DNA of 64,000 nucleotides, from assembly GCF_028649455.1 (NCBI RefSeq), contig NZ_JAQSIO010000004.1, positions 1 to 64,000 of the forward strand, in the 5' to 3' direction. The position numbers and the translations under genes were made by a program. Positions within the stretch are counted from its first letter, which is position 1. Each line of letters opens with the position of its first letter. The notes below the pieces were generated by a model. That model searched no databases. It saw only the letters and a list, made by a program, of their open reading frames with translations, and was not told where the DNA came from. Source of the DNA: Curvibacter microcysteis (lineage in GTDB: Bacteria; Pseudomonadota; Gammaproteobacteria; Burkholderiales; Burkholderiaceae_C). Shown piece by piece: positions 44,736 to 61,993 of this stretch.

Positions 44736-44788
44736 CCTAAGCTGGTCGATTGACCGGTTTAGGGTATTTGATCGCGGGTGGTGCCTGG

Positions 44789-45289
44789 TTAGTTGCTTCC
44801 AGGCAGATAAACCTGCTCCAACCAATGTACTCCCACCTTTGCCACGTCCAAGCTTCGCAGTAGCACCTCGATGTCGCCCGCCACGTTGTACCTGGCCAGG
44901 TCACTCAGGCGGAGGAACATGCTTTCGCGCACCCGCACCAGAACATGGTCCTCTGTCTCCCAGGCTGCAAAAACCCGCTCGCCGCTTGCCATGCAAAAGG
45001 GGGTGAAGATAAATCCATGAATTGGCGGCACTTTAAAGGCCGTCGGCGATGCCATGCGGAGGCGCTTCATTAAAGCAAGCTTCTCGCCGTAATCAATCGG
45101 CGCCGTCAGTATCCGGTACAGCGCAACTGCTCCAAACAGTGCGGCCTCCGTCGCAGTAAAGCCACCTGGTCGCCAGTTGGCCTGAAGCACACTTGGAAGC
45201 TCGTCGACAGCACTGTCAAAAAGCAACTTGGGGAATGGACGCAGTGGCAGCGGTATGTAACCCGGGGTGGGGAAGAATGTCGTTTTCAT
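44789..45289 (-). CDS. Hypothetical protein in island
   Basis: A 166-residue protein beginning MKTTFFPTPGYIPLPLRPFPK. No family is recognised. It looks soluble and globular, without membrane helices or a signal peptide. A start at 45289 is preferred because the frame further upstream crosses a terminator-like hairpin. It stands alone on the minus strand, convergent with the lipoprotein gene. Confidence 0.6.
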   Translation of the reverse strand: MKTTFFPTPGYIPLPLRPFPKLLFDSAVDELPSVLQANWRPGGFTATEAALFGAVALYRILTAPIDYGEKLALMKRLRMASPTAFKVPPIHGFIFTPFCMASGERVFAAWETEDHVLVRVRESMFLRLSDLARYNVAGDIEVLLRSLDVAKVGVHWLEQVYLPGSN

Positions 45290-45324
45290 GCCGCAGATTC
45301 TCTGCAGGTGGCATGAATTCGACA

Positions 45325-45348
45325 CAAAAAAAGCCCGTCGCCGGGCTT
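45325..45348 (-). terminator. Terminator-like hairpin
   Basis: AAGCCCG (45331-45337) pairs with CGGGCTT (45342-45348), and on the minus strand seven T residues follow. No minus-strand gene is apparent upstream of it, so it may be left over from a deleted gene or protect the gene at 44789 from read-through. Confidence 0.6.
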
Positions 45349-45487
45349 GCTGGGAGCGAAGGGTGGCGTTCAACCTGAATACCGCACCTACCGAGCCGAG
45401 GTCACAGCTGTTTTGTCTTAAAGCTTACCCTGTATCAGGGCAGGCCAGCGCCCGACCAAAAGCTTGTGGGTAAGTTAGAGTTAGCCG

Positions 45488-46042
45488 ATGTCTTACCTCG
45501 ACTATTTGCTGCAGCCCCAGGACTACACAGGGGCGGATTTGGCCAGAATTGAGGCCCTCCGCCAGGAGGCCTACGACGACTATCGCAGCAGGCCAATTGA
45601 AGAGGTTTGGGAGATGGCGGACTTCTCCCTCTGCTTCATGGATGACACTCCAGTCGAGATCATGGAGCGCTTTACGATCCGTAAGGACGTAGCGCGCGAG
45701 CTGACGCGTTACCACGAGTGGCGTTACCAGCGCCCCGCGCCCACCTTGCCGATCCCAAAGGACGCAGACTGGGTGTGGGGCGGTGTTGATCTAGAAACCT
45801 ACACCGAGGTCAAGGCACGCTACCCCGGCATCCTGACATACTTTGCCAGCAGCAACTCTGCGCCGAGACACACCCTTTGGTTCTGGATTTCACGATTCGA
45901 CCAGTGGGCAGCCTTGGAGCGCGACTTGATGCATCTCCTGGCCTGTGGTGAGCAAGTCGAGGATTGGAACGACTATGAGGCTAACGTGCGAAAGCATCTG
46001 GAGCGCGTGCACCTCGGCGTGGCACAGGGCGACTTTGCTTAA
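45488..46042 (+). CDS. Hypothetical protein in island
   Basis: A 184-residue soluble protein, MSYLDYLLQPQDYTGADLAR, rich in Asp, Glu, Trp and Tyr. It has no recognised motif and no membrane segment. It precedes the type I restriction locus but is separated from hsdM by 337 bp, so it is probably transcribed on its own. Confidence 0.6.
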   Translation: MSYLDYLLQPQDYTGADLARIEALRQEAYDDYRSRPIEEVWEMADFSLCFMDDTPVEIMERFTIRKDVARELTRYHEWRYQRPAPTLPIPKDADWVWGGVDLETYTEVKARYPGILTYFASSNSAPRHTLWFWISRFDQWAALERDLMHLLACGEQVEDWNDYEANVRKHLERVHLGVAQGDFA

Positions 46043-46379
46043 TCATTTGATAACCCACAACCAACTGTGGGACGCGCCGATCATGTCGGAGGCACCTGCC
46101 GGCACACACACCGGATGCTGTTATGAGGGCGGCCCGGGTGCTTCGATGAGCGGCCAGCTATGCAGCATCGGCAGGGCTTAGCGGCCAATCCCAGACCCGA
46201 CCGAAGACGGCATGCCACCTCGATGGACGACATTCGCACCAAAGGCGCGGATCAGCGACAGCACCCATCCTTGGACACCGAAAAATACCCTCGATGCCCA
46301 CGTCCTAAAATTTAGCTACTGGCGAGTTCAAGTCACGCACTTTCGCAGTGAAGATCAATGAACGTCAAGTTAGAAGTCC
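46043..46379. other. Gene-free region upstream of hsdM
   Basis: About 340 bases without a supported gene. It should hold the promoter of the hsd locus. No convincing operator or strong promoter was found by eye. Confidence 0.5.
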
Positions 46380-48218
46380 ATGAACCACCAAGCCCTCTCG
46401 TCTTTCATCTGGTCCGTCGCCGATTTGCTGCGCGGCGACTTCAAACAGTCCGAATACGGGCGCGTCATCCTCCCCTTCACCGTGCTCCGGCGCCTGGACT
46501 GCGTTCTGGAGGCCACCAAGCCGGCCGTCCTGGCCGAGTTCGAGGCCAAGACCAAACTGGGCCTGAACCCTGACCCATTTTTGGAGCGCAAGGCCGGCCA
46601 AACCTTCTTCAACACCTCGCCGCTCGACCTGGCGAAGCTGTTGGGCGACCAAGACCACATCCGGCAGAACCTCTACGCCTACGTCCAAGGCTTCTCTCCG
46701 GCCGCCCGAGACATCTTTGAGCGCTTCGATTTCTACACCCAGGTGGAACGCCTCGCCAAGGCCAATTTGCTCTACCTGGTGACCGAGAAGTTCGCGAACA
46801 TCGACCTGCACCCTGATGTGGTGGACAACGCCCAGATGGGCGGGGTGTTCGAGGAGCTCATTCGCAAGTTCGCCGAAATCAGCAACGAGACCGCCGGGGA
46901 GCACTTCACCCCACGCGAGGTGATTCGACTGATGGTGAACCTGCTGTTCATCGAGGATGACGATGTGCTCACCGCCGGTAACGCCGTGGTGCGCACCATC
47001 TACGACCCGACAGCGGGCACGGGCGGGATGCTCTCTGTGGCCGGTGAGTACCTGCTGGAGCACAACCCCCAGGCCCGTCTGACCATGTTCGGCCAGGAGC
47101 TCAACGACGAGTCGTACGCGATTTGCAAGGCCGACATGCTCATCAAGGGCCAGGACGTCGGCAACATCGTCGTGGGCAACACCTTGAGCGACGACGGCCA
47201 CGGCCTCCGCAAGTTCGACTACATGCTCTCCAACCCGCCCTTCGGCGTGGAGTGGAAGAAGGTGGAGAAGGCCGTGCGGCAGGAGCATGAGCAAAAGGGC
47301 TTTGACGGCCGATTTGGCCCGGGCCTGCCCCGGGTCTCGGATGGCTCGATGCTGTTCCTGCTGCACCTCTTGTCCAAGATGCGCCCGGCCCAGGAGGGCG
47401 GCAGCCGCTTTGGCATCGTCTTGAACGGCTCACCCTTGTTCACCGGGGGCGCCGGCAGCGGCGAGAGCGAAATCCGGCGCTACGTGCTGGAGAACGACCT
47501 GGTCGAGGCCATCATCGGCCTGCCGACCGACATGTTCTACAACACCGGCATCGCCACCTACGTCTGGGTCTTGTCGAACAAGAAGCCCGAGGACCGACGT
47601 GGCTTCGTTCAGCTCATCGACGCTTCGGCCTTCTGGCAAAAGATGCGCAAAAGCCTCGGCAGCAAACGCAAGGAGATGAGCGAGGAGCACATCGCCACCG
47701 TCACCCGCCTGTTCGGTGATTTCACCGAGGCGGAGCAGTTCACCGTGTTCGACGCCCAGGGCAAGGAGGTCGAGACCCGCCTGGTCACCGCGACCGATGC
47801 CCCGCCCGTGCACCCCGAAGGCGGCAAGCTCAAGAAGGTGCCGATTTCGCGCATCTTCGCCAATGAGGATTTTGGCTACACCACCATCACCGTCGAGCGC
47901 CCCCTGCGCGATGAGGCGGGTAACGTGGTTTTGGGCCTCAAGGGCAAGCAAAAGGGCAAGCCCCAGGCCGACAGCGCCCTTCGCGATACCGAGAACATTC
48001 CGCTTAGCGAAGACGTCACAACCTACTTCGCGCGCGAGGTGCTACCTCATGCACCCGATGCCTGGATTGAGCCGGAGAAGACGAAGGTGGGCTACGAAAT
48101 TCCGTTCAACCGGCATTTCTACGTCTTTGAGCCGCTGCGCAGCCTTCACGAAATCGACGAAGAGCTGAAGGCCGTCACGAGCAGCATCATGAAGATGCTG
48201 GGGGAGTTGGCGGAATGA
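46380..48218 (+). CDS. hsdM: Type I restriction-modification DNA methyltransferase subunit
   Basis: A 612-residue N6-adenine methyltransferase. An HsdM N-terminal helical domain ([20 protein letters not shown]) is followed by the SAM-binding motif [16 protein letters not shown] and the catalytic motif NPPFGVEW. With HsdS it methylates the recognition site; with HsdR it forms the restriction complex. The next gene, hsdS, overlaps by 4 nt (ATGA). Confidence 0.96.
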
Positions 48219-49555
48219 GTGTGTCGCAATACGCAGACTATGAGGACAGTGGATTTGATTGGCTAGGGAAAGTGCCGGCGCACTGGGAAGTGGCGCCTTT
48301 GAAGCGATACGCCGCTGTTCAAACGGGCATTGCCAAGGGCAAGGACAACGAGGGCAAGAACACGGTAGCCGTACCCTATTTGCGTGTGGCTAACGTTCAG
48401 GACGGTCACTTGGTGCTTCATGACATGGCCACCATCGACGTGACGGCTGACGCGATGTCTCGCTATCGTTTGAGGCCCGGCGACGTGCTGATGAACGAAG
48501 GTGGCGACGCGGACAAACTGGGCCGAGGTTGCATCTGGCAAGGCGAGATTGCGGATTGCATCCACCAGAACCATGTGTTCGCGGTTAGGCCGCAAGGGGT
48601 CTCATCCGAGTGGCTCAACTGGGTAACCAGTTCAGCAGGGGCGCAGTTCTATTTCCTCACGCGTTCCAAGCAAAGCACCAACCTTGCGTCCATCTCTTCG
48701 ACCAACATCATGGAGTTGCCGCTAGTCGTGCCACCTATTGATGAGCAAGCATCCATCACCGCCTTCCTCGACCGCGAAACCGCCAAAATCGACACACTGA
48801 TTGCCGAGCAAGAAAAGCTCCTGACCCTGCTCGCCGAGAAGCGCCAAGCCACCATCTCCCACGCCGTCACAAAGGGCCTTAATCCCGATGTGTCGATGAA
48901 GGACTCGGGGGTGGAGTGGTTGGGGGAGGTGCCGGAGCATTGGGATGTAAATAGACTCAAATTCATCGCATCCGTGCAAACCGGCATTGCCAAAGGCAAA
49001 GACACTGCGGACAAAGAAACCATCGCAATCCCTTACCTCCGGGTAGCGAATGTTCAGGATGGCTATCTCGCTCTTGACGATGTGGCCATCATCGAAATCG
49101 AGGTAGAACAGTTAGAGCGGTATCGCTTAGCGCCTGGCGACGTTCTGATGAACGAGGGCGGCGACTTCGACAAACTTGGGCGTGGTGCCGTCTGGCGTGG
49201 TGAGATTGCTGACTGTATTCACCAAAACCACGTCTTTGCGGTGCGGCCGCATGGTGTTAGCTCGGAGTGGCTCAACCTGATCACAAGTTCCCGATACGCT
49301 CAGTTTTACTTCATGAGTCGCTCGAAGCAAAGCACAAATCTGGCTTCTATCTCCTCGACGAACATCATGGAGCTACCAGTGGTCCTCCCGCCGCAAAGCG
49401 AGCAACGGACTATCTTGGCATTTCTCAAATCAGAAATTGGCAAGCTTGATAGTCTGACAAACCGTGCGAAGCGGGCTATCGGCCTGTTCAACGAGCGCCG
49501 CTCCGCCCTCATTTCCGCCGCCGTAACCGGCAAAATTGATGTCCGAAATATCTGA
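48215..49555 (+). CDS. hsdS: Type I restriction-modification specificity subunit with duplicated TRDs
   Basis: A 446-residue DNA-recognition subunit with two target-recognition domains (TRDs) and two helical spacers. The two TRDs are unusually alike: both contain [52 protein letters not shown] and [19 protein letters not shown]. By eye about two thirds of positions agree. The DNA of the halves differs at many synonymous sites, so this is not a recent duplication. Two like TRDs suggest a palindromic two-part recognition site. The spacers ([20 protein letters not shown] and [20 protein letters not shown]) follow each TRD. Confidence 0.95.
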
Positions 49556-49575
49556 AAAATTATTAGGGAGAAAAA

Positions 49576-51693
49576 ATGAGTCATACGCTGACCGCCAAAG
49601 AGCAGTCGCTTTCTAAAATTTTCAGTGACGACTACGCCTTCACTATTCCGGGCTACCAGCGCCCCTATGCTTGGGGCCGAGACCAAGCGCAGGAGTTGCT
49701 GGACGACTTGCTGGGCGCCCTGGCTGCTGCGCCAAATCAACTCAACGACGCTGCGCCGTATTTCCTCGGTAGCATCGTACTCATCAAGACCGAGGCCGTA
49801 CCCGACGCCACCGTTGTAGACGGCCAGCAAAGACTGACGACGCTCACGCTACTTTTGTCAGCTATCCGCGCGTCAGTTAATGACGCCGAACTTCAGAAGG
49901 ACATCACAGGCTGCATCTATGAAAGAGGCAGCTTAGTTAAAGGGACTCAACCGCGATACCGGCTGCTCCTGCGAGAGCGCGACCGTGATTTCTTCCGCGA
50001 TTACGTCCAACACGAGAACGGTCTACAAGAGCTTGCACAGCTTAATACGGTGTTGCCTGACGCCCAGAGCCGCCTCCGCGCGAATGCACTGGTATTCATG
50101 GAGGGCCTCGCGAAAATGCCGCAGGCGGAGCTGGTGCGGCTTGTGCAGTTTGTCATCACGCGCTGTTACCTCGTCACTGTGGCAACGCCAGACCTTGATT
50201 CGGCTTATCGAATTTTCGGTGTACTCAACAGTCGCGGCCTGGACCTGAGTGCGACAGATATCCTCAAAGCGGAAATCATCGGCGGCATTGCGCCAGCGTT
50301 ACGCGACGCGTACACAAAGAAATGGGAAGACGAAGAAGAGGACTTGGGGCGAGATGAGTTTGGCGAACTGTTCAGCCACATTCGCATGGTCTACCGTAAA
50401 GCCAAGTCCCAGGGGACATTGCTCAAGGAGTTTAAAGAGCATGTTGCACCGGCCAAACAATCACAGAGCTTTATTGACAACGTGCTGCTTCCGATGGCCC
50501 AAGCCTTCGGCGAACTACGAGATGCCGATTACGCAAGTACTCACCACGCCGAAGAGGTGAACGAGCACCTTCGATGGCTGAACCGTCTGGAGTTCAAGGA
50601 CTGGGTGCCTCCAGCCTTAACCTTCTTCGTCTCGCATCGGCAGCAACCTGACGCGGTGCTGGCCTTTTTTCGAGACTTGGAGCGGCTGGGGTATTCGATG
50701 TTGGCTCGCAAAACAGGAGTCAATGACCGCATCGAACGCTTTTCGGCACTGACCAATGCCGTCGAAGCAGGCGCCGACCTGTCACTCACCACATCCCCTC
50801 TCCAACTCTCGTCAGACGAGCAGTACCAAACCTACGCCGCGCTAAGTGGACCTTTGTACGAGACCCATTCGCCCCGTGCATTGGCACTCCTGCTTTTGCG
50901 ACTTGACCGCCTGATGTCGGACGGCAGTGCCAGCTACCAACATCAAGTTGTCTCGGTTGAGCACGTCATGCCTCAGCAACCGGCTCCAAACAGCCAATGG
51001 GCAACCTGGGTACCCGACAAGGCAGAGCACCAGCTCTGGGTCCACAGACTCGGCAATCTAACCTTGCTGAGCCGCAAAAAGAATAGCTCCGCAAGTAACC
51101 GAGATTTTGACTGGAAGAAATCAGCCTACTTCAGCAAGGGAGGCGTCTGCGCATTTGCTCTGACGACTCAGGTTCTCCAATACGCGGAATGGCACACCGA
51201 AGCGATGCAACAACGCCAGGAGTCCTTGCTCGCGAAACTGGAGGCGCATTGGCGCCTTGAGGACCGCAAGAGCAAGGCAGAGCTGGCCGAGGCGCTGTTG
51301 GCTGACCTGACAGCAGCAGGTGATGCCGTCATCTTCGAGCTTGAGAGCTCGCGCCACGGTCTCGTCGCCACAGCGAAGGAAAGTGGCAAGGCATTTACTG
51401 TGCTTGCAGGCTCACAGGTCAAGCTCGATTGGTCTGGCCAGCCCCACTCCTATTCGCAACTGCGAGAAGACCTGCGGGAATCGGGGGCGCTGAAACTATC
51501 CGAGACCGGTACCCATCTTGTCTTCGCTTGTGACACGGACTTCAAGAGCCCTAGCGCCGCCTCAGCCACGGTCCTGGGTCGTACCGACAATGGCCGGAAC
51601 ACCTGGCGACTTAAAGGGACTGCCATCACCTATGCAGCATGGCAAGACAACCTGCCGGGCAACCAGCCAGCGACAGGCCGCTCGGAGGTCTGA
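49576..51693 (+). CDS. DUF262-DUF1524(-DUF4357) nuclease-like protein
   Basis: A 705-residue protein. The N-terminal DUF262 part has IPGYQRPYAWGRDQ and VVDGQQRLTTLTLL, a ParB-like NTPase fold seen in GmrSD and BrxU. The middle has a DUF1524-like HNH nuclease pattern (VEHVMPQ, then HRLGNLTLLSRKKNSSASNRDF). The C-terminus (ASATVLGRTDNGRNTWRL) looks like DUF4357. Enzymes of this type cut modified phage DNA in known cases. It is inserted between hsdS and hsdR with 20- and 2-bp gaps, so it is part of the same operon. GGGAG lies before its ATG. Confidence 0.9.
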   Translation: MSHTLTAKEQSLSKIFSDDYAFTIPGYQRPYAWGRDQAQELLDDLLGALAAAPNQLNDAAPYFLGSIVLIKTEAVPDATVVDGQQRLTTLTLLLSAIRASVNDAELQKDITGCIYERGSLVKGTQPRYRLLLRERDRDFFRDYVQHENGLQELAQLNTVLPDAQSRLRANALVFMEGLAKMPQAELVRLVQFVITRCYLVTVATPDLDSAYRIFGVLNSRGLDLSATDILKAEIIGGIAPALRDAYTKKWEDEEEDLGRDEFGELFSHIRMVYRKAKSQGTLLKEFKEHVAPAKQSQSFIDNVLLPMAQAFGELRDADYASTHHAEEVNEHLRWLNRLEFKDWVPPALTFFVSHRQQPDAVLAFFRDLERLGYSMLARKTGVNDRIERFSALTNAVEAGADLSLTTSPLQLSSDEQYQTYAALSGPLYETHSPRALALLLLRLDRLMSDGSASYQHQVVSVEHVMPQQPAPNSQWATWVPDKAEHQLWVHRLGNLTLLSRKKNSSASNRDFDWKKSAYFSKGGVCAFALTTQVLQYAEWHTEAMQQRQESLLAKLEAHWRLEDRKSKAELAEALLADLTAAGDAVIFELESSRHGLVATAKESGKAFTVLAGSQVKLDWSGQPHSYSQLREDLRESGALKLSETGTHLVFACDTDFKSPSAASATVLGRTDNGRNTWRLKGTAITYAAWQDNLPGNQPATGRSEV

Positions 51694-51695
51694 GC

Positions 51696-54600
51696 ATGGC
51701 GCTACACAAGGAAGTCCACTTCGAGTCAGAAATCTGCGCCCACCTCGCGGCCCACGGTTGGCTCTACGCCGAGGGCGATGCCGAGCACCACGACCGCGCC
51801 AGCGGCCTCTTCCTGCCCGACCTGCTGGCCTGGGTGGAGGCCACCCAAGCCGAGACCTGGCAGCGCCTCACCAAGACCCACGGCCCGGCACTGGCCGAGC
51901 GCCTGGCCGAGCGGGTGCGCAAGAACCTCAACGAGCGCGGCACCCTCGATGTGCTGCGCCGTGGCGTGGAGATGATTGGGCTCAAAGAGCCCTTGATCCT
52001 GGCGCAGTTCAAGCCCTCGCTCGCCATCAACCCGGCTACCCTGGAGCGTTACGCGGCCAATCGGCTGCGGGTGGTGCGGCAGGTTCGGCACTCGCCCAAC
52101 AACACCAAAGATGCGCTCGACCTGGTGCTGTACCTGAACGGCCTCCCAGTGGCCACTGCCGAACTGAAGTCCGACTTCACCCAAAGCGTTCAGGACGCCG
52201 TGGACCAATACCGCTTCGACAGGCTACCCCAGCCCAAAGGCGGGGTGCTGGAGCCGGTTCTGGGCTTTCCTGGGGGCGCCCTGGTGCACTTCGCGGTGAG
52301 TCAGAGCGAGGTAATGATGACCACCAAGCTCGCGGGCCCGGCCACGTACTTCCTGCCTTTCAACAAGGGCAACGAAGGCGCAGCGGGCAATGCGCCCAAC
52401 CCCGAGGGCTTTGCCACGTCCTACCTGTGGGAAGAGGTCTGGGCCCGTGATAGCTGGCTCGACGTCCTGCATCGCTACCTCATCGGAAAACGCGACGACA
52501 AGAAGCAGCCGAAGAACGTCATCTTCCCTCGTTACCACCAACTCGACGCCACTCGGCGGCTGGTGGCCGATGTGCTGGCGAATGGTGCCGGTCAGCGCTA
52601 CCTGATTCAGCACTCGGCGGGCTCGGGCAAGACCAATTCGATTGCCTGGACAGCGCACTTCCTGGCCGACCTGCACAACGCCGAGCATCAAAAGATGTTC
52701 GACAGCGTCCTGGTGGTGAGCGACCGCAATGTGCTGGACGCTCAGCTCAAGGAGGCCATCTTCGACTTCGAGCGCACCCACGGCGTGGTGGAGAGCATCA
52801 CCAACGAGCACGGCAGCAAAAGCGCCCAGCTCAGCCAGGCGCTCAAAGATGGCAAGAAAATCATCATCTGCACCATCCAGACCTTCCCCTTCGCCCTTCA
52901 GGCGGTGCAAGACCTGGCGGCCACCGAGGGCAAGCGCTTCGCGGTGATTGCCGACGAGGCCCACAGCTCGCAAAGCGGTGAGGCGGCGGCCAAGCTCAAG
53001 CAGCTTCTATCGGCCGAAGAATGGGAGGCGCTGCAAGATGGTGGCGAAGTCGATACCGAGGCCTTGCTGGCCGCGCAGATGGCCGCGCGCAGCGCCGACA
53101 GCGCCGGGGCCAAGAGCCTGACCTACATCGCCTTCACGGCCACCCCGAAGCAGAAGACCCTGGAGCTGTTCGGCCGCCCCGGCCCGGACGGCTTCCCCCT
53201 GCCCTTCCACGTCTACTCGATGCGTCAGGCGATTGAAGAGGGCTTCATCCTGGACGTGCTGAAGAACTACACCAGCTACAAGCTCGCCTTCAAGCTCGCC
53301 CATGACGGGCAGGAATACGACGAGACCCAGGTCGAGCGCAGCGCGGCCATGAAGGGCATCATGAGCTGGGTGCGCCTGCACCCCTACAACATCGCGCAAA
53401 AGGTACAGGTGGTGGTCGAGCACTTCCGCGAGAACGTGCAACCCCTTCTCGCGGGCAAGGCGAAGGCGATGGTGGTGGTGGGCAGCCGCAAGGAGGCGGT
53501 GCGCTGGCAAAAGGCCATCCGGGCCTACATCGAGCGCCAGGGCTACCCCTTGGGCGTGATGGTGGCCTTCTCGGGCGAGGTAGACGACCCCGAGAGCTAC
53601 CCGGCCCCGGTCACCGAATCCAGCAAGGACCTGAACCCGGGCCTGAAGGGGCGCGACATCCGCGATGCCTTTGCCGAGCCCGATTACCACCTGCTCCTGG
53701 TGGCGAACAAGTTCCAGACCGGGTTTGACCAACCTCTGCTTTGCGGGATGTACGTGGACAAGATGCTCGGCGGCATCCAGGCCGTGCAAACCTTGTCGCG
53801 CCTGAACCGCGCCCACCCGGGCAAGGACACAACCTACATCCTCGACTTCGTCAACGAGCCCGCCGACATCCTCAAGGCCTTCAAGACCTATTACGAGACG
53901 GCCGAGTTGGAGGCCAGCACCGACCCGCACCTGGTCTATGACCTGCGGGCCAAGCTCGACGCCAGCGGCCACTACGACGACTTTGAGGTGGAGCGCGTCG
54001 CCAAGGTGGACGTGGACCCCAACGGCACGCAAAAGCAGCTCGACGCCGCGATTGCCCCGGTGGCCGACCGCCTTCTGAAGCGCTACAAGGCCGCCAAGGC
54101 CGATAAAACCTGGGCTGATGAACAAGGGGACGAGAAAGCGAGCCAGGCCGCCAAGGACGCGCTCGACGTCCTGGTGCTTTTCAAGAACGACATGGGCAGC
54201 TTCGTGCGCCTCTACTCATTCCTCTCGCAAATCTTCGACTACGGCAACACCGACATCGAGAAGCGCTTCCTGTTCTTCAAGCGCCTGATCCCCCTGCTGG
54301 AGTTCGGCCGGGAGCGCGACACGGTGGACCTCTCGAAGGTGGTGTTGACCCACCACACCCTGAAGAACCATGGCAAGCAGTCCCTGAACCTGAACGCCGA
54401 CGGCACCTACAAGCTGCCCCCGATGGATGCGGTGGGAACGGGCTCGGTGCAGGAGAAGCAGCAGGCCTACCTCAACGAAATCATCCAGAAGGTGAACGGG
54501 TTGTTTGAGGGTGAGCTCAGCGACGATGACCAGCTCATCTACGTGAACGGCGTTCTGAAGGGCAAGCTCCTCGAAAACGAGTTGCTGGTCCAACAGGCCG

Positions 54601-54818
54601 GCAGCAACTCGAAGGAGCAGTTCGCCAACTCGCCGGACCTGAAGGCGGCCGTGCTGAACGCGATCATGGATGCTCTGGACGCGCACACGACGATGAGTAC
54701 CCAGGCTTTGGGTTCGGAGAAGATTAGGGATGGTCTGACCGATACCTTGCTCGGGCCGGCGATGCTTTATGAGGCACTCAGAGCGAGGGCTCAGGGCAGG
54801 GACTCCACGTCGCCTTAA
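51696..54818 (+). CDS. hsdR: Type I restriction enzyme endonuclease/translocase subunit
   Basis: A 1,040-residue HsdR. The N-terminal nuclease domain has a D...ExK-type site (DLVLYLNGLPVATAELK). SF2 motor motifs follow: QHSAGSGKTNSIAW (Walker A), IADEAHSSQ (DEAH box), FTATPKQ and NKFQTGFDQPLLCGMYVDK. It translocates DNA and cleaves at a distance when HsdMS finds unmethylated sites. Start at ATG 51696, 2 bp after the DUF262 gene. Its end overlaps the convergent gene at 54815 by 4 bp. Confidence 0.96.
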   Translation: MALHKEVHFESEICAHLAAHGWLYAEGDAEHHDRASGLFLPDLLAWVEATQAETWQRLTKTHGPALAERLAERVRKNLNERGTLDVLRRGVEMIGLKEPLILAQFKPSLAINPATLERYAANRLRVVRQVRHSPNNTKDALDLVLYLNGLPVATAELKSDFTQSVQDAVDQYRFDRLPQPKGGVLEPVLGFPGGALVHFAVSQSEVMMTTKLAGPATYFLPFNKGNEGAAGNAPNPEGFATSYLWEEVWARDSWLDVLHRYLIGKRDDKKQPKNVIFPRYHQLDATRRLVADVLANGAGQRYLIQHSAGSGKTNSIAWTAHFLADLHNAEHQKMFDSVLVVSDRNVLDAQLKEAIFDFERTHGVVESITNEHGSKSAQLSQALKDGKKIIICTIQTFPFALQAVQDLAATEGKRFAVIADEAHSSQSGEAAAKLKQLLSAEEWEALQDGGEVDTEALLAAQMAARSADSAGAKSLTYIAFTATPKQKTLELFGRPGPDGFPLPFHVYSMRQAIEEGFILDVLKNYTSYKLAFKLAHDGQEYDETQVERSAAMKGIMSWVRLHPYNIAQKVQVVVEHFRENVQPLLAGKAKAMVVVGSRKEAVRWQKAIRAYIERQGYPLGVMVAFSGEVDDPESYPAPVTESSKDLNPGLKGRDIRDAFAEPDYHLLLVANKFQTGFDQPLLCGMYVDKMLGGIQAVQTLSRLNRAHPGKDTTYILDFVNEPADILKAFKTYYETAELEASTDPHLVYDLRAKLDASGHYDDFEVERVAKVDVDPNGTQKQLDAAIAPVADRLLKRYKAAKADKTWADEQGDEKASQAAKDALDVLVLFKNDMGSFVRLYSFLSQIFDYGNTDIEKRFLFFKRLIPLLEFGRERDTVDLSKVVLTHHTLKNHGKQSLNLNADGTYKLPPMDAVGTGSVQEKQQAYLNEIIQKVNGLFEGELSDDDQLIYVNGVLKGKLLENELLVQQAGSNSKEQFANSPDLKAAVLNAIMDALDAHTTMSTQALGSEKIRDGLTDTLLGPAMLYEALRARAQGRDSTSP

Positions 54819-55357
54819 AAGACCTTTTCAGCCTTGGCCGTCCATTCCTCAATCAAGCCTGTAGCTAGGCTGGAAACCTCCAGCAACTCCGCGGTCAACG
54901 CAGCAAAGGTCGACCACCGCATGTACCGGGGTTTGCCCAGGCTCATGTCAAACACCCCCACCGGCCAACCCAGGCGACGGCGGATGTCCGCCTCACGCCT
55001 GAACAGGCGAGTGCGCCGGTTTTCGCGCTGGGTGGCCGCTACCACCCCGTGGCATTGCCGGCACCCGAACCGGCCATGGTGAAGGTAGATCACACCGCAC
55101 CGCCGGTCGCAGATCGGGCACAAAACCCAGCGCATGGCCCCTCCAAAATGCCGCGGCTGGTGTACCAGGCCGACGGGCTGGACCAGGCGCCCAGCAGAAA
55201 GCACCACCAGGTCAGGCGATTCCAGCCGGGCTGTGATGGCTTGGCGGCCATCGCTGACCCCGTACAGCGCCTTGTTGGTCAGGCGCCAGGAGGGGATCTG
55301 CTCATTGGTTGGCCGGGCTGCCCTGAGGCCGTGACGGCCTGAAAGTATTGAACCCAT
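54815..55357 (-). CDS. Zinc-ribbon hypothetical protein
   Basis: A protein of about 180 residues with a zinc ribbon (CPICDRRCGVIYLHHGRFGCRQC) in its middle. The rest is Arg-rich and probably DNA-binding. Proteins of this kind occur near integrases and replication genes of betaproteobacterial islands; no function is known to me. The start is uncertain: ATG 55357 is assumed, while a TTG at 55447 would place the start inside a large inverted repeat. Confidence 0.65.
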   Translation of the reverse strand: MGSILSGRHGLRAARPTNEQIPSWRLTNKALYGVSDGRQAITARLESPDLVVLSAGRLVQPVGLVHQPRHFGGAMRWVLCPICDRRCGVIYLHHGRFGCRQCHGVVAATQRENRRTRLFRREADIRRRLGWPVGVFDMSLGKPRYMRWSTFAALTAELLEVSSLATGLIEEWTAKAEKVF

Positions 55358-55390
55358 TGTGTCGAGAAGAGTAGGGTTGTTAGAGCTGAA

Positions 55391-55484
55391 AAGTTGGATT
55401 TGTTGTATGCGCGTACGAGTGAAAAAATTAAAGAGAGAGCTTTTCAAATTTTTCTTCTCATACGCGCATACAACTTTTCCAACT
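55391..55484. repeat. Large imperfect inverted repeat by the replication gene
   Basis: The left arm (55391-55429) and right arm (55447-55484) are reverse complements with only a few mismatches; the core GTTGTATGCGCGTA (14 bp) is exact. A loop of about 17 bases separates them. The AT-rich hairpin lies immediately downstream of the replication protein gene and just before the zinc-ribbon gene. Candidates are a terminator or attenuator, a regulator binding site, or a replication-origin element. Confidence 0.75.
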
Positions 55485-58245
55485 ATTGCCAGGGCACTTT
55501 CGATCTCCGGGATTCAGCGACCGCCTGGATTGCCTCGGACATCTTTTTTCTCCTGTCTGCAATCCGCACCCCCTCTGCTTGGAACTTGCGATGGACTTCG
55601 GGGTTAACCAGGTACAACCCAGCAGATCGCCGACCTGGCTTCCCAACCTTGCGGCTTGGCGTGATGTCTTGTACCCAACCGAACTCGATCAAGAGGTCAA
55701 TTGCCCAGCTTGTGCTTTGATCGTTAGCGCTCCGCCAACCTGTAGCGTCCCGCGTCAGATCACCTCGACTAACCGCTTCCCACCCCTTGGTCAAAATTGC
55801 TTCGCACGCAGCTTTGACCAGCCCGGAGCCGACCCCCCCTTGCTGGTCAATGTCCTTGTAAGTCTCTTGGCTGTGCCGAAAGAGGCACATCAAAATGGCC
55901 TTGGCGTTGTTCATCGTCGCCTCGGAGACGGCCTCGCGAAACTGGCCAGTGGCGGCACACTCCAACCAATGCAGCGTTGATGCGACCCTAGCTAGGAACC
56001 CTGGGAACTTGTTGTAATGCTCAGCCAAACGGACATCGGCCACACCTTGGGCGACTGTTTGCATGTGGTTGTGGAATGCCTCCGCCACGGCACGTGCCCC
56101 GGGTGTTGCATCAAGATTCCGGGGCTCGCCGCTCCGGGCCATGCGGGCAAGGGTCAAAAACACAGAGCGACACTGATCCTCGACTTGGGGTGACCGCTTG
56201 TGCGAGTAGTCAACTGGGCGCTGCTGCGCCATCAAGAGGGGGAGAAAGCGCTGAAAGAGGCCGTCCGATGTGCCCGTCCTTTGTAGCATTTGTGCCAACT
56301 TCTCGGGCTGAACGGCGGTCAAAACGCCGACGCTAAAGTTATCCAAGACCATCGGCATCGGGTCAGATTTGCGGTTGACAGTCTGCCTCCCCCCGTCAAA
56401 AGACTTGAGGTAGATCGGTCGGTCTTTGCCCGCTGTGCCACTGTAGGCATCCATTCGCCCGCAGAACTCCGAAAACTCGTCCAAGTGGATCACCACACCA
56501 CCAGGGTTGTCCACCAGGAGCTTGGCCAAACCCTCCGTGGTGGTATCACCAGCAATCAATTGACGCCACGGGGGGGGTGAGGTCACTTTGCGATCCTTCG
56601 GGGGCAGCGTCAAATAGTCCGATTCGTGTCGTTCCTTCGATTCATTGACCATTTCCCTGTCGATCTCGGCGAGGAATTTCATGGCCGCCTTGATCACGGG
56701 GGACTTTCCGTCACCGGCCTTGCCGAGGACTATCCCCCAAAGAAAGGACGGCACAGAGAGCGGCCCAACATTGAACCTGTTCCGATGGTCAATTAATCCG
56801 GAAGCTGCGACCAACAATGAAAAGCCCACGGCCCCCTCGTCGAACCCTGAGCCTGCGCTGAAGTCGCGGCAATACTCGGCAAGCGGCCTTGGCAGGTGGT
56901 CCAGTGGGAAGCGCGGTGCGGGTTGATCTACAAAAGGATCAATGGGTTGAGGCCAGGGTAATAGTTCGAGCTTTTCTTCAAGGCTTGCCGGTGCTGGCGC
57001 AGCACACCCCGCGTCAAAAACCGCCTGCAAACCGGCAATGCAATCGCCGTCATTCGGCCCTGCTGCCCCTGTACGCTGGCCACCCGCCCCCTGCTGCAGG
57101 ATCGCCCTGAAGTCAGCGATAGAGGCTGCGCCCCCCGGCTTCAAATCGGACCCGATAGGAACACCGTTGACGGTCATCGTGATGGGTTCGGGCTCCATGC
57201 TCGGCAGGCACAAGCGCAGCGACTCGGTGGCCTTGGCGAACGTGGTCCCGTTGGCGTCCATCACCAGGTCAATGGGGGTCATGCCATAGTTGCCACCGAA
57301 GTCCATGATGCCGTGGGGGTGGATGCCGACGTTGGGGTTCTCGCAGGCCCGCCAGGTGGCGATGGCCCGGAACCCGTCTGCGTGCGCCCTTGCCGTGGGC
57401 ACCAGCTTGGTGACCCAGGCCCCAAGGTTGGCCAGGGCGTGCTGGTTCAGGTCGTGGAAATACTGGGCGTGGATCGAGCGCTCGCCCGGAATCACGTCCG
57501 GGCTGTCCTTGGGCGCTCGCGCAGGCTTCTGGTAATGTCGGTCTTCCTCGGTCTGGTACGGGGCAAGCACGCGCTCGACCTGGGCCATGAAGTCGTCGGG
57601 CAGCTGGGGCAGCTCATCAATGGGCCATAGGTTGTCCAGCGTTTCCTCCGTCAGCCACACGTAGTTGCAGCCGCTGGGGTGGGCCGTAGGCGGCACCACG
57701 GTTTGCCGACCGTCGGACAGGATGTCCAGCACCCGGTTGCCGCCCACGTCGAAGGACTTGGAGGGCTCGCCGTTGTAGCGGTAGAACTTGGTCCAGCCCT
57801 TGGCGCCCTTCTTGGCCACCGGGGTGTAGGGGATGATGGCGTCAAGGGCATCATTGCCCCCGGCCGGAAGGTCGTAGTCCTTGTCCAGGGCAACGATGCG
57901 CGACAGCTTGCCGCACACAACGCCGATACCGGCCCCTGGCCAGCGCTCCCAGTGCTCCAGCTCGATGCTGGTGGGCAACCGTTCGGCGAAGCGTGTCCAT
58001 TTGGACATTCCTCGCCAACCATCAACCTCTGACCATTCGCCGGGTTTCTTGCTGCCCGGGGCGATTGGAACGATGCTAATTTTTCGCTCAAGGTACTTCC
58101 AGGCGAACTCAGAAAAGACCGAATTGGCGGGGTAGGAAGCTTGCCCACTCACGCCACTTGCGAGAAAATCTTGGTGTTCCTGCTGTTTTTCCTGAGAGGC
58201 CTCGCTGGTTGCCGCCAGCGGGGCTTCATTCATTTGGGCGTTCAT
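55483..58245 (-). CDS. Prim-Pol/DUF3987 replication protein
   Basis: A 920-residue protein. The N-terminal part is a bifunctional primase-polymerase (Prim-Pol) domain with GIGVVCGKLSRIVALDKDYD (catalytic acidic residues) and KGWTKFYRYN. The C-terminal part is a DUF3987 helicase-type ATPase with Walker A GKAGDGKSPVIK and Walker B VVIHLDEFSEF. This combination is typical of replication proteins of satellites and integrated plasmids. Its ATG overlaps the stop of the upstream regulator (ATGA), so the genes are coupled. Confidence 0.88.
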   Translation of the reverse strand: MNAQMNEAPLAATSEASQEKQQEHQDFLASGVSGQASYPANSVFSEFAWKYLERKISIVPIAPGSKKPGEWSEVDGWRGMSKWTRFAERLPTSIELEHWERWPGAGIGVVCGKLSRIVALDKDYDLPAGGNDALDAIIPYTPVAKKGAKGWTKFYRYNGEPSKSFDVGGNRVLDILSDGRQTVVPPTAHPSGCNYVWLTEETLDNLWPIDELPQLPDDFMAQVERVLAPYQTEEDRHYQKPARAPKDSPDVIPGERSIHAQYFHDLNQHALANLGAWVTKLVPTARAHADGFRAIATWRACENPNVGIHPHGIMDFGGNYGMTPIDLVMDANGTTFAKATESLRLCLPSMEPEPITMTVNGVPIGSDLKPGGAASIADFRAILQQGAGGQRTGAAGPNDGDCIAGLQAVFDAGCAAPAPASLEEKLELLPWPQPIDPFVDQPAPRFPLDHLPRPLAEYCRDFSAGSGFDEGAVGFSLLVAASGLIDHRNRFNVGPLSVPSFLWGIVLGKAGDGKSPVIKAAMKFLAEIDREMVNESKERHESDYLTLPPKDRKVTSPPPWRQLIAGDTTTEGLAKLLVDNPGGVVIHLDEFSEFCGRMDAYSGTAGKDRPIYLKSFDGGRQTVNRKSDPMPMVLDNFSVGVLTAVQPEKLAQMLQRTGTSDGLFQRFLPLLMAQQRPVDYSHKRSPQVEDQCRSVFLTLARMARSGEPRNLDATPGARAVAEAFHNHMQTVAQGVADVRLAEHYNKFPGFLARVASTLHWLECAATGQFREAVSEATMNNAKAILMCLFRHSQETYKDIDQQGGVGSGLVKAACEAILTKGWEAVSRGDLTRDATGWRSANDQSTSWAIDLLIEFGWVQDITPSRKVGKPGRRSAGLYLVNPEVHRKFQAEGVRIADRRKKMSEAIQAVAESRRSKVPWQ

Positions 58246-58673
58246 TTGGGCGCCCCCTTTCTGGCGGCCGCGCGCTGCTCAATCCACTGTTCGACCTCAA
58301 CGCGGATCCATCGCTTGGACCTACCGACGATGATGGGCACCGGGAAGCCTACCTGGCGAGACAACTCATGCACGGCAGTCCGTCGCAGTCGTAACAGCTC
58401 CTGTAGGTCAGAAAACGTGATCAGGACAGGCCGATAGGACTGTCGTCGGGGCTCGGGGTCGGGATCAGGCTGGGGATCGTCAGAAGAGGCCGCTACGGGC
58501 GCTTCTGGGGCTGCCGACGCGCCACTACCACCTGACTCGGGTAGGTCGTTGGTGATGGTCGGTATCGTGGCCTCGGGGGCTTTGCGGGAGTCGCCGCCGC
58601 GAGCTCGGTGGAGGGCATCTGCGAAGTCACGCAGGCTGCCCGTGACGGACATGGAGAAAGGGCGAATGGTCAT
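58242..58673 (-). CDS. Helix-turn-helix protein, AlpA/excisionase-like
   Basis: A 143-residue protein. The first ~85 residues are low-complexity (proline, alanine, aspartate-rich). The C-terminal ~60 residues look like an AlpA/MerR-type winged HTH (ITFSDLQELLRLRRTAVHEL then GFPVPIIVGRSKRWIRVEVE). It probably regulates the replication gene it overlaps, or acts as an excision factor. An ATG at 58652 is an alternative start. Confidence 0.7.
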   Translation of the reverse strand: MTIRPFSMSVTGSLRDFADALHRARGGDSRKAPEATIPTITNDLPESGGSGASAAPEAPVAASSDDPQPDPDPEPRRQSYRPVLITFSDLQELLRLRRTAVHELSRQVGFPVPIIVGRSKRWIRVEVEQWIEQRAAARKGAPK

Positions 58674-58736
58674 TGCAGGAACCTGATCGGAGTCGAATAG
58701 AAGCGGCCAATATCGGGGGTAAATGGCAATTCGACG

Positions 58737-58946
58737 TCACGCAGCCAAGAAGGCGCGCAATTCGCCCACGTGCCAGCGCGTTGCGCGAAGGGAAATTTTC
58801 CGGGGGGCGGGCAAGGCGCCGCGCTGGACCATGCGCCAGACAGTCGCTTTGGAAACGCCAGTGACGGTGGTCACGACGTCGAGTGCGACAAACGCACTGT
58901 CGGGGAGGTCGTCGAAGTTGACGGCGGATGAGGGAATAGCGGCCAT
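58737..58946 (-). CDS. alpA: AlpA-family transcription regulator
   Basis: A 69-residue AlpA-type regulator (LDVVTTVTGVSKATVWRMVQ, then LPAPRKISLRATRWHVGEL). In P4-like elements AlpA controls integrase expression and excision. ATG 58946 is preferred; the frame is open to a GTG at 58973. It lies upstream of the second HTH gene on the same strand. Confidence 0.85.
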   Translation of the reverse strand: MAAIPSSAVNFDDLPDSAFVALDVVTTVTGVSKATVWRMVQRGALPAPRKISLRATRWHVGELRAFLAA

Positions 58947-59062
58947 GTGGATCTCTATTGAGGTGACGGACACACCGGGGTGATGTGTCTTGCGTGTTCA
59001 ATAGTGTTCCTGAGGCACTATGCGCCGTCGAGGCCAACAGGTCTGGGGCTTTTGACCTTGAC

Positions 59063-59509
59063 TTATTCCTGGTCGCTACGCATTGCTTCCTGATATTCCC
59101 GAACCCTGCGCCTCACCGTTGCCTCCGACAGCTCAAGCTTAGACAGATCAGGCTTAGCCGGATCACGCTTGTACGACTCGGCCAAGCTAGCGTATGCACC
59201 CTCAACGGTTAGCCCACGTCTTCTCAGAGCGTCAAATTCCTGCCCAATCTTGTAGTAGTCACCCTTGGGGCGCGCATTAAGCACTGTGAGGTGTAGCTCT
59301 CTTGCCAACTCCTTGGCCCTGGCTGCGGGTGGCTTCGCCATCGCAGCCTCAATGGCGCCGGCCAAATGTCCAGCCAGAGGGGTTGGCAAGGGCTTTCCCT
59401 CACGGATGTACCGAGCCGCTAACTGCAGGGCCTTGGCTGCTGCATCAGCGTCACCTGGCGCGCATGAGACGTACTCAGCAGCATCTGCGTCAAAGTTGAT
59501 CCAAACCAT
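59063..59509 (-). CDS. Hypothetical protein following the integrase
   Basis: A 148-residue protein starting MVWINFDADAAEYVSC. It is helical in appearance and ends with an HTH-like segment LSKLELSEATVRRRVREYQE that might bind DNA. Its ATG lies 4 bp after the integrase stop, so the two are co-transcribed. Function unknown. Confidence 0.65.
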   Translation of the reverse strand: MVWINFDADAAEYVSCAPGDADAAAKALQLAARYIREGKPLPTPLAGHLAGAIEAAMAKPPAARAKELARELHLTVLNARPKGDYYKIGQEFDALRRRGLTVEGAYASLAESYKRDPAKPDLSKLELSEATVRRRVREYQEAMRSDQE

Positions 59510-59513
59510 CAGC

Positions 59514-60734
59514 TCACCCGTTCGCACGCAGTTGGATCACGTCAGCCCCCTGGCGCAGCTTGTCCAGGTAGTCCGCCCACCGCTGCATCATTTCGCGCCG
59601 GGCTGGCAGGTGAGCCGTACGGTTGTAGGCGCGGCCATTGGGGTCTTTGACGGCATGAGCAAGCTGGTGCTCGATCAAGTCCACGCGCTCGCCCAGCACC
59701 TCATCCATGATCGTTCGGGCCGTTGCACGGAAGCCATGGGCGGTCTGTACCTCGTTGCTGTACCCCATGCCCCGCAAGGCTGCATTGACGGTGTTTTCGG
59801 ACATGCAGCGTTCGCCAGTGCGCATGCTGGGAAAAACATACCGGCCGTGCCCGGTGATTGGTTGCAGCTCCTGCAGAATCGCTACTGCCTGGCGACTCAG
59901 GGGAACGAGGTGATCGTTCTTCATCTTCATCTTGGCACCAGGGATGCGCCATTCGGCGGCCTCCAGATCAAACTCAGTCCACTCCGCTGAGCGCAGCTCG
60001 CCCGGCCGGACAAACACCAGCGGCGTCAGCTTGAGTGCAGCACTGGCGACGGGGTAGCCCGTGTACGCATGAATAGCCCGCAGCAGGGGCCCCAGCTGCG
60101 AGGGATCCGTGACAGCAGCGTAATGCGTCTTTTCAGCACGCTGCAGGGCTCCACGCAGATCCGTGGTCACATCGCGCTCAGCAGAGCCCTCGGCGACGGC
60201 AAAGCGGAACACCTGACCGCAGATCTGGTTCACCCGGTGCGCAGTGTCAAACGCCTTACGGGCCTCGATCTTGCGCACCACGGCCAAAACATCACGCGGG
60301 CCAATTGAGGTGATGGGGCTAGCACCGATGGAGGGAAAAACATCCTTCACCAGCCAGGTTTGGACTTTTCCCTGGGTGGACTCAGCACGACTGGCTGCCG
60401 TCGCCGTCAACCACAAGCGCGCGATTGCCTCGAAGGTGTTGGAGGCAGTTGCAGCGCGGTGTAACTTTTCCTCCCGCTTGGCCTGGCCGGGGTCGAGCCC
60501 ATCAGCCAACAGCTTCTTGGCATCTTCGCGCCTTTGGCGAGCCTTGGCCAGAGACACCTCAGGGTAGACACCCAAGGCCAACGTCTTGCGCTTGCCGTGG
60601 ATCGCATAGTCCATCCGCCAATACTTGCCTGCCGCCTTGACGAGAAGGAACATGCCAGCGCCGTCGGCGTACTTGTCCCCCGCTGGCTTGCCTGAGGGTT
60701 TGACTTGCTTGATGAAAGTATCGGTGAGGGGCAT
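59514..60734 (-). CDS. int: P4-type tyrosine integrase
   Basis: A 406-residue site-specific recombinase. The N-terminal DUF4102 arm-binding domain (TDTFIKQVKPSGKPAGDKYAD, KTLALGVYPEVSLAKAR) is followed by the catalytic domain. Catalytic residues are visible as Arg in FVRPGELR, HGFR in AHGFRATAR, and Tyr near AYNRT. It is placed next to the tRNA-Leu gene and reads away from it, the standard layout for tRNA-directed islands. Confidence 0.95.
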   Translation of the reverse strand: MPLTDTFIKQVKPSGKPAGDKYADGAGMFLLVKAAGKYWRMDYAIHGKRKTLALGVYPEVSLAKARQRREDAKKLLADGLDPGQAKREEKLHRAATASNTFEAIARLWLTATAASRAESTQGKVQTWLVKDVFPSIGASPITSIGPRDVLAVVRKIEARKAFDTAHRVNQICGQVFRFAVAEGSAERDVTTDLRGALQRAEKTHYAAVTDPSQLGPLLRAIHAYTGYPVASAALKLTPLVFVRPGELRSAEWTEFDLEAAEWRIPGAKMKMKNDHLVPLSRQAVAILQELQPITGHGRYVFPSMRTGERCMSENTVNAALRGMGYSNEVQTAHGFRATARTIMDEVLGERVDLIEHQLAHAVKDPNGRAYNRTAHLPARREMMQRWADYLDKLRQGADVIQLRANG

Positions 60735-60745
60735 GGAGGGGGCTT

Positions 60746-60803
60746 CTTACGGTATCTGGACCTACGGCATCTACCAAGTACCGTTCGAAGTACCGTAAAA
60801 ATA
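60746..60803. promoter_or_regulatory. Repeated TACCGT/ACGGTA sites upstream of int
   Basis: The stretch contains TACGGTA, TACGGCA, AAGTACCGTTCGA and AGTACCGTAAAAATA, the last an exact match to 43429-43443. The sites lie between the integrase start and the right att repeat. Integrase or excisionase binding, or AlpA operators, are the most likely roles. Confidence 0.55.
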
Positions 60804-60839
60804 CCGAGATGAGATGCTACCCCTTGAGCCTACCTGCGA

Positions 60840-60931
60840 CAAGAAAAAACCCGCAGAGCCAGAAGCCATGCGGGTTTTGAGGGGTTTGGCGACCGCCTGA
60901 GGCGATCAAATGGTGCCCGGAACCGGAATCG
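60840..60931. repeat. Right attachment repeat (att with intact tRNA 3' end)
   Basis: Partner of 43271-43362, 92 bp with four differences. Bases 60911-60931 are the 3' end of the intact tRNA-Leu gene (CCA end and T-arm). The rest is the tRNA terminator region. Confidence 0.9.
60844..60878 (-). terminator. Terminator downstream of tRNA-Leu
   Basis: ACCCGCA pairs with TGCGGGT, flanked by A and T runs. On the minus strand it lies about 33 bp past the tRNA 3' end and ends in a T-run. Confidence 0.8.
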
Positions 60932-61239
60932 AACCGGTACGACTTGCGTCGAGGGATTTTAAGCATGCTCTGTCTGCCGGTTTCCCCGCAGCATGGACTA
61001 TCTCTTTGCCCTCAGCTTGACCTGGTGGGGCAGTGGGCGCTCTTGCTGGTCATTAAGAGGGCTTGACCTCTCCAGTAGTCTCTGCACCTTCCAGAACTGC
61101 AGTTCTGGCTTGGCTCACGATCGGCATGGCTTGCGCTTTAGCCTCTCCTGAATTCACCCACAGCTTGCTTCGCCGTTACTGGCGAAGGGGGACTCGTTGT
61201 CTGACGATCCCTTGTGTCTACCAATTTCACCATCCGGGC
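60911..61239 (-). tRNA. tRNA-Leu(UAA), interrupted by a group I intron
   Basis: The 5' exon (61239-61207) begins GCCCGGATGGTGAAATTGG and the 3' exon (60963-60911) ends with the T-arm GGTTCGATTCC and the encoded CCA. Acceptor arms GCCCGGA and TCCGGGC pair. The anticodon loop sequence CTTAAAA gives anticodon UAA. About 243 bases interrupt the anticodon arm. The mature exons make a normal long-variable-arm leucine tRNA except for uncertainty of one base at the splice junction. The gene's 3' end is the island attachment site. Confidence 0.88.
60964..61206 (-). ncRNA. Group I self-splicing intron in tRNA-Leu
   Basis: The insertion has the conserved catalytic elements of bacterial tRNA group I introns. 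The R strand GGTGCAGAGACTACTGG (around 61090-61073) and the S strand AAGAGATAGTCC (around 61006-60995) would form P7. The 5' exon end GGGAU can pair with the intron's GUCCC, with a U-G pair at the splice site, and the intron ends in G before CTTAAAA. No ORF is inside. Exact junctions are unsure by one base. Similar introns are known from Azoarcus tRNA-Ile and cyanobacterial tRNA-Leu. Confidence 0.85.
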
Positions 61240-61398: not shown

Positions 61399-61474
61399 TG
61401 GAGCGGGAAAAGAGGCTCGAACTCTCGACCTCAACCTTGGCAAGGTTGCGCTCTACCAACTGAGCTATTCCCGC
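61399..61474 (-). tRNA. tRNA-Gly(GCC), copy 4 in transcription order
   Basis: A 76-base cloverleaf, GCGGGAATAGCTCAGTTGG at the 5' end, anticodon GCC in CTTGCCAAG, T-arm GAGTTCGAGCCTC and encoded CCA. Identical to the other three copies. Last of the array before the terminator. Confidence 0.97.
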
Positions 61475-61571
61475 GTGACCGTTTTTGCAGACCCTTTTTC
61501 AAGCGCCTACCGGATGCGGCCATTGCTGACCTCACCCTGCCCTCTGCGAGCCAAACCGCAGCGGCTTTATT

Positions 61572-61647
61572 TGGAGCGGGAAAAGAGGCTCGAACTCTCG
61601 ACCTCAACCTTGGCAAGGTTGCGCTCTACCAACTGAGCTATTCCCGC
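61572..61647 (-). tRNA. tRNA-Gly(GCC), copy 3 in transcription order
   Basis: Same 76-base sequence as its neighbours, exactly 173 bp from the next copy. The spacer of about 97 bases is repeated with few changes. Confidence 0.97.
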
Positions 61648-61744
61648 GTAACCGTTTTCGCAGGCCCTCTTTCAAGTGCCTGCCGGATGCCGCCATTGCT
61701 GACTTCACCCTACCCTCTGCGAGCCAAACCGCAGCGGCTTTGTT

Positions 61745-61820
61745 TGGAGCGGGAAAAGAGGCTCGAACTCTCGACCTCAACCTTGGCAAGGTTGCGCTCT
61801 ACCAACTGAGCTATTCCCGC
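61745..61820 (-). tRNA. tRNA-Gly(GCC), copy 2 in transcription order
   Basis: Identical 76-base gene, again on the 173-bp period. Anticodon GCC and encoded CCA are intact. Confidence 0.97.
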
Positions 61821-61917
61821 GTAACCGTTTTCGCAAGCTCTCTTTCGAGGGCCTGCCGGATGCGGCCATTGCTGACCTCACCCTGCCTTCTGCGAGCCAA
61901 ACCGCAGCGGCTTTGTC

Positions 61918-61993
61918 TGGAGCGGGAAAAGAGGCTCGAACTCTCGACCTCAACCTTGGCAAGGTTGCGCTCTACCAACTGAGCTATTCCCGC
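61918..61993 (-). tRNA. tRNA-Gly(GCC), copy 1 in transcription order
   Basis: First gene of the array, identical to the others. A strong sigma70-type promoter lies about 70 bp upstream. Confidence 0.97.

Follow-up and report, generated by a model that had tools for sequence, protein, structure and literature searches.

The 64,000-nucleotide stretch of the Curvibacter microcysteis genome analyzed here (contig NZ_JAQSIO010000004.1, positions 1 to 64,000; hereafter the window) carries, on its minus strand at 60911-61239, a tRNA-Leu(UAA) gene that is split by a group I intron, probably one capable of removing itself, and in which a splice-site base pair thought to be essential, the U-G pair at the 5′ splice site, appears to be missing. 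Specifically, comparison with related introns makes it likely that the 5′ exon ends at A31, that the following U is intronic and that the 3′ exon starts from C32, which would give a seven-base anticodon loop and an A-U pair at the splice site. With respect to novelty, the insertion site, the unusual 5′ splice site and the sharing of the intron by bacteria and viruses appear to be new, while the kind of intron is known.

The gene has a CCA end and is interrupted before the anticodon, as judged from the sequence and from ARAGORN with introns allowed; a default tRNA-finding run missed it. All coordinates given here for parts of the gene refer to the minus strand. The 5′ exon (nucleotides 1 to A31) occupies 61208-61239 and ends in GGGA, which forms the exon side of P1. 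The intron, as bounded by the comparative junction, occupies 60964-61207 (244 nt), with U as its first base and its terminal G at 60964, and the 3′ exon, from C32 to CCA, lies at 60911-60963 with the anticodon UAA at 60961-60959. The Rfam model Intron_gpI (RF00028) matched 61258-60974 with 47.9 bits (E 4.1e-10 in the 6 kb searched), although this score is 2.1 bits below the gathering score of 50. Scanning five virus relatives with the same model detected the intron in four, at 54 to 63 bits, and not in L220 (E 0.01). The group I core from P3 to P8 includes the guanosine-binding helix P7, formed by GACUA at 61076-61080 and UAGUC at 60996-61000 and paired in 9/9 members of the structural comparison described below. 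GGGAU/GUCCC complementarity is also present in the window. A preliminary description of this DNA had proposed a tRNA-Leu(UAA) gene with a group I intron and had named the P7 strands and the terminal G, all of which are recovered here; its figure of about 243 intron bases fits a U-G junction and becomes 244 (61207-60964) under the junction that we favor.

The placement of the 5′ cut draws on 13 distinct members, namely the window intron and 12 relatives (four beta-proteobacterial and eight on virus contigs), or five bacterial and eight viral introns. In all 13, the exon end [GC]GGA pairs with the guide UCC[CG], giving 4/4 P1 pairs, and in L220 and L237 both sides have changed together from GGGA/UCCC to CGGA/UCCG. 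Under the favored junction the -1 pair is A-U in 13/13, rather than the U-G typical of group I introns. The base after A31 (+1) is U in six members, G in three and A in four, and it faces a guide G that is invariant in 13/13, such that U-G, G-G and A-G all occur at this position. Because G or A stands there in 7/13 members, the +1 base looks intronic and the splice-site pair would be A31-U, and the earlier proposal that a U-G pair marks the 5′ cut is not supported. If the +1 base is taken to open the intron, A31-C32 and the loop CUUAAAA result in every member; read as the exon end it yields an eight-base loop, and read as position 32 it places a purine there in 7/13. The preliminary description had correctly seen that a U-G site combined with the terminal G leaves an eight-base loop, such that one boundary must shift, and our comparison suggests that it is the 5′ boundary that moves, by one base. 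The anticodon arms of relatives' tRNA-Leu(UAA), one of the 16 itself having an intron at 34/35, contain C32 in 16/16 and A31 in 15/16 (L028 has G31), and C32 therefore appears native to this tRNA.

The remaining pairings at the two splice sites fit the same placement. The internal guide, 5′-G-UCCC at 61189-61193, forms P1 through UCCC:GGGA, and its G (61193) stands opposite C32 in 13/13 members, making a first P10 pair possible, with U33-A following in 10/13. Both pairings known from group I introns, P1 with the 5′ exon and P10 with the 3′ exon, can thus be drawn, and the conserved guide G would have a role as a possible pairing partner of C32. The guide GAGUCCC of the window is complementary without a break, and with one G-U, to the joined exons GGGACUU, its GAG (61193-61195) being the possible P10 partner of C32-U33-U34. 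At the 3′ end, the terminal G found in 13/13 was required by the extraction pattern. Directly before G|C, members other than L251 carry P9.0 as AUG/CAU, GG/CC or GUG/CAC; in the window its strands are AUG at 60992-60994 and CAU at 60965-60967, immediately before the terminal G, the first two pairs show two-sided changes in the comparison, and the P9 hairpin occupies 60974-60991. The fairest test of the junction comes from five virus members reached through junction-free core motifs, although a pattern that demands U also led to L149, and a pattern fixing the exon up to GGA was used to obtain the L159 5′ end. In these five, the +1 base is U in one, G in three and A in one, and all read G|CUUAAAA at the far end. 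When P1 was folded by itself, A31-U was paired and the guide G unpaired in both the window and L162, the +1 U of the window pairing with an A and the +1 A of L162 remaining unpaired.

Several observations weigh against this placement. A U-G pair can form one position downstream in 6/13 members, including all five bacterial ones, and the +1 U of L080 and L107 was demanded by the search pattern. The stand-alone P1 fold of L149 pairs its +1 U with the guide G, and that of L195 takes another register. With respect to P9.0, the fixed register pairs in 1/3 positions in L251 and in 2/3 in L218 and L220, and a mismatch in P4, discussed below, could weaken folding. In terms of selection, all 13 members were extracted with patterns fixing A31 and C32, and for L237, L251 and L263 the search itself fixed GCTTAAAATCC. 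Finally, a 2025 database paper describes the U-G pair as completely conserved and needed for cleavage (PMC11835236). As controls, 38 other tRNA introns (28 Ile, six gamma-proteobacterial Leu, three Leu 34/35 and one Thr) contained a guide motif fitting U-G in 38/38, a weak test in that the motif was three bases within the first 90 for the Ile, Leu 34/35 and Thr introns and GTCCC for the gamma introns. The U at -1 and the terminal G of these 38 follow by construction from the selection patterns, and neither the controls nor the tree include L087 and L112, which nearly duplicate L064.

The intron fold was drawn by hand for nine distinct members and consists of P1, P2, P3-P8, two extra hairpins between P7 and P3, P9.0 and P9. 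In this structure 95.7% of 610 cells are paired, a share that is favored by the structure having been drawn from the same sequences, and pairing falls to 35.5-46.0% when partner strands are slid. Two-sided changes, which occur in 31/68 pairs, are better evidence for the fold than the paired percentage. Among 500 shuffles, none matched the real alignment in pairing, two-sided changes or covariation score, and 12 reached its number of further pair types. The anticodon stem is paired in 9/9 with one two-sided change, a level that 65/500 shuffles equal. The two extra hairpins after P7 may place the intron in an IA-like subgroup and not with the IC3 type of Azoarcus. One pair of P4 (5′ strand at 61147-61152, partner at 61114-61119) is G x G in 9/9 members and subsequently in 12/13, with L263 as the exception, and in 0/18 tRNA-Ile introns with a readable P4. 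The initial association of this mismatch with the A31|C32 site (10/10 versus 0/18) was broken by L263, leaving it as a correlate only.

The genome seems to have no tRNA-Leu(UAA) gene besides the intron-bearing one. In the genome, which is 99.99% complete, no second Leu(UAA) gene was found by two patterns, both of which an unusually shaped gene could escape: GGYAGAC-N9-TTAA matched only inside this intron, and TTAANATCC...GGTTCRANTCC matched only this gene. Since no second gene was found, the spliced tRNA should work, and a tRNA without a detected spare copy would depend on a ribozyme.

Among other placements of the cuts, the one that survives best, which we nonetheless judge improbable, is a canonical cut after the U at U-G combined with the normal terminal G. 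GGGAU/GUCCC would be a textbook P1 in the window and five other members, and the L149 fold mentioned above forms exactly this U-G; in the 7/13 members with G or A at +1, however, the cut would have to fall at G-G or A-G. The resulting eight-base loop (UCUUAAAA) might read UUA poorly or shift frame, ARAGORN calls this version an undetermined tRNA, and the two genome patterns offer no second Leu(UAA) gene beside it. A cut after the U could also be paired with a 3′ cut one base later, after C, to give a seven-base loop (UUUAAAA) that ARAGORN accepts and a P10 that would pair U33-A. This is very unlikely, as the intron would end in C where P9.0 sets a G, position 32 would be a purine in 7/13, and the 38 other tRNA introns all end in G, as their selection patterns required. 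Loss of splicing and an inactive gene, as the P4 mismatch in 12/13 and the RF00028 score below the Rfam cut-off might suggest, are very unlikely in view of the two-sided changes in 31/68 pairs, the joint exon and guide changes in L220 and L237, the intact exons and the failure to find another Leu(UAA) gene.

With the cut between A31 and C32, splicing would proceed as follows. A group I ribozyme interrupts the anticodon loop of the apparently sole tRNA-Leu(UAA) gene between these two bases, the 5′ exon end GGGA pairing with UCCC of the internal guide to form P1. A guanosine bound in P7 would attack after A31, at A-U instead of U-G, and the guide G, normally opposite the U, would pair with C32 of the 3′ exon in P10. 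A31 would then attack after the terminal G, to give a tRNA with the loop CUUAAAA and a freed 244-base intron starting with U. Sequence comparison directly shows the fold, the complementarity of guide and exon, P9.0 and the variation at +1. That the RNA is catalytic, in which order the steps occur, that P10 is used and where exactly the cut falls are inferences. As to how the site is chosen, we tentatively suggest, with slightly less than even confidence, that a cut at A-U is picked by a guide continuously complementary to the joined anticodon arm, that the freed guide G serves P10, and that the P4 change, near the P1 docking site, may be what enables this.

The U-G pair at the splice site is termed critical or completely conserved in three papers (PMC8395846, PMC11835236, PMC10020454), and a survey of IStrons gives the exon end of known introns as virtually always U and exceptionally C (PMC4227781). 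According to this survey, splicing of group B elements takes place after G and their U-G is shifted by one, with in vivo support for BcISt1 (PMC4227781), so a one-base shift is already known. As described there, the U-G of group B IStrons lies one base inside the intron, a position at which a +1 U faces the guide G here in 6/13 members, the window included; in the other 7/13 Leu(31/32) members, however, such a displaced U-G is impossible. In addition, the exon ends in G in group B IStrons but in A in the Leu(31/32) introns, and group B IStrons carry an insertion-sequence part, whereas the window intron is without one, its 244 nt being taken up by the fold. A full-text literature search, with subscription journals largely outside reach, returned no report of the tRNA site, of sharing with virus contigs or of members unable to form the shifted U-G. 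If the proposed cut is correct, a family that works without U-G would reveal what else defines the 5′ splice site, and catalogue filters that require U could hide real introns; a 2025 catalogue rejected 16,427 candidates without U at the splice site (PMC11835236).

Turning to kinship, a BLAST comparison of the window intron with L144, of the tRNA-Ile(CAU) type with GGUGACC near its start, gave E 7e-29, indicating a homologous core. The Leu(31/32) introns fall into one supported set (23 rows, 95/87) with the Ile introns L034, L144, L145 and L174, of which L174 is the viral one, and with the tRNA-Leu(CAA) introns of gamma-proteobacteria; an earlier tree gave a similar grouping. A single clade for the 13 members was not rejected by the approximately unbiased (AU) test (p 0.627). 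In the free tree the 13 are not grouped: they spread around L174 and the Leu(CAA) introns of gamma-proteobacteria, and L251 and L263 sit on long branches. In the earlier tree, with 10 members and unevenly trimmed rows, they formed a 96/87 clade. These results fit a jump between Ile and Leu, in either direction given the midpoint root, with acquisition of a new guide. The Leu intron is also a case of one tRNA intron present both on chromosomes and on virus contigs, with transfer possible either way.

The tRNA-Ile(CAU) introns of beta-proteobacteria have a core related to that of the Leu intron but sit directly behind CAU and have a guide compatible with U-G, in contrast to the position between A31 and C32 with A-U. 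The tRNAscan-SE 2.0 paper reports tRNA-Ile2 intron cases in Acidovorax and Burkholderia (PMC8450103). The window's genome contains a second, stronger group I match (L001 on contig C7, 66.8 bits), which belongs to another branch of Ile introns; ARAGORN labels it Gln(CUG), while its exons read as tRNA-Ile(CAU) with the intron directly after CAU. More generally, ARAGORN labels tRNA-Ile(CAU) intron genes Gln, Arg, Ser or Met. The cyanobacterial and plastid tRNA-Leu(UAA) intron interrupts the same tRNA as the window intron but lies between U34 and A35, whereas the window intron precedes C32 and the whole anticodon; the 34/35 introns of the window's order (L005, L032, L061) occupy a different part of the tree from the Leu(31/32) introns. 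The gamma tRNA-Leu(CAA) introns (L064, L073, L087, L090, L094, L104, L112, L128) are close to those of Leu(UAA) in the tree and share the GUCCC guide, as read in six of the eight, but are cut one base later (U32|U33), where U-G fits.

In the family of the window's genome, group I matches occur in 36/299 sampled genomes, and the exon pattern identifies 25/30 examined loci as tRNA-Ile(CAU). Other family loci include Leu(UAA) 31/32 (L043, L053), Leu(UAA) 34/35 (L061) and Thr(UGU) 34/35 (L060, a group I intron placed after U34 by eye), and two further Leu introns at 34/35 are L005 and L032. The Leu 31/32 site is occupied in 3/399 family genomes (G000, G006 and G204, the window's own included), a fourth match (G061) being tRNA-Ile. 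The preliminary description's term scarce thus suits this Leu site but not group I matches in the family as a whole. The genus-mate G006 matches the window gene at 98%, and a Curvibacter sp. HBC61 contig (L075) carries the same intron. A class-wide pattern scan returned 1/369, the window's own genome only, and an order-wide BLAST search returned 3/399, comprising the same genome and two tRNA-Ile introns. In a collection of 84,980 species, the pattern GGTAGACACRRGGGATV, which required U at +1, gave 77 stretches. By eye, 12 of these are intron-bearing tRNA-Leu, four beta-proteobacterial (L075, L138, L080 and L107, where L075 is G006 and L138 is G204) and eight gamma-proteobacterial, the latter being the tRNA-Leu(CAA) introns with the site one base further on; in the remaining 65, the bases inspected contained no tRNA-Leu exon. 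The intron-bearing tRNA-Leu(CAA) genes L064, L073, L087 and L112 are near-identical in assemblies named Porticoccaceae, Paraglaciecola, Porticoccus and Cycloclasticus, which may reflect either recent transfer or mixed bins.

In a virus collection, the same U-requiring pattern found L149, which sits within a group of five tRNA genes (1/10 stretches with a Leu intron). Core motifs added L159, L162/L199, L163 and L195 (6/46 stretches, of which about L176 to L194 were judged by ARAGORN alone), and a 3′ junction pattern added L237, L251 and L263 (9/45). Patterns requiring GCTTAAAATCC were used in part of the searches, including this last one. Some records occur twice (L218=L149, L220=L162, L216=L163, L217=L195, L221=L159), and L199, identical to L162 over the region, was counted once. 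The virus contigs with the Leu intron are 5 to 239 kb long; a T4-type portal gene is present on one 179 kb contig (1/5 records searched), the others being called virus by the collection, and L195 lies among about 25 tRNA genes. Other group I-like introns, some about 600 to 770 nt long, are found in virus tRNA genes at L195, L158, L185, L206, L174 and L157, with two intron-bearing tRNAs at L195 and the L157 intron read by eye only. Among plasmids, 15/15 matches span only the first 33 bases (the exon end), and 109 records of named phages match the L149 gene, none over more than 80% of it.

With respect to the surroundings of the gene, a region of about 17.6 kb (43276-60931) is flanked by direct repeats (97% over 74 nt and, judged by eye, some 20 nt more from the 3′ end of tRNA-Leu). 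It encodes a tyrosine integrase beside the tRNA, a type I restriction-modification system, a primase-polymerase protein and a nuclease of the GmrSD type. This region looks like an integrative element, for which the intron-bearing tRNA-Leu would be the attachment site. Near its left end, at 44049-44138, is a short GC-rich repeat of GGGCTG-like units. Upstream of the tRNA-Leu gene, at 61399-61993, are four tandem tRNA-Gly(GCC) genes with equal Rfam scores and 173-base spacing.
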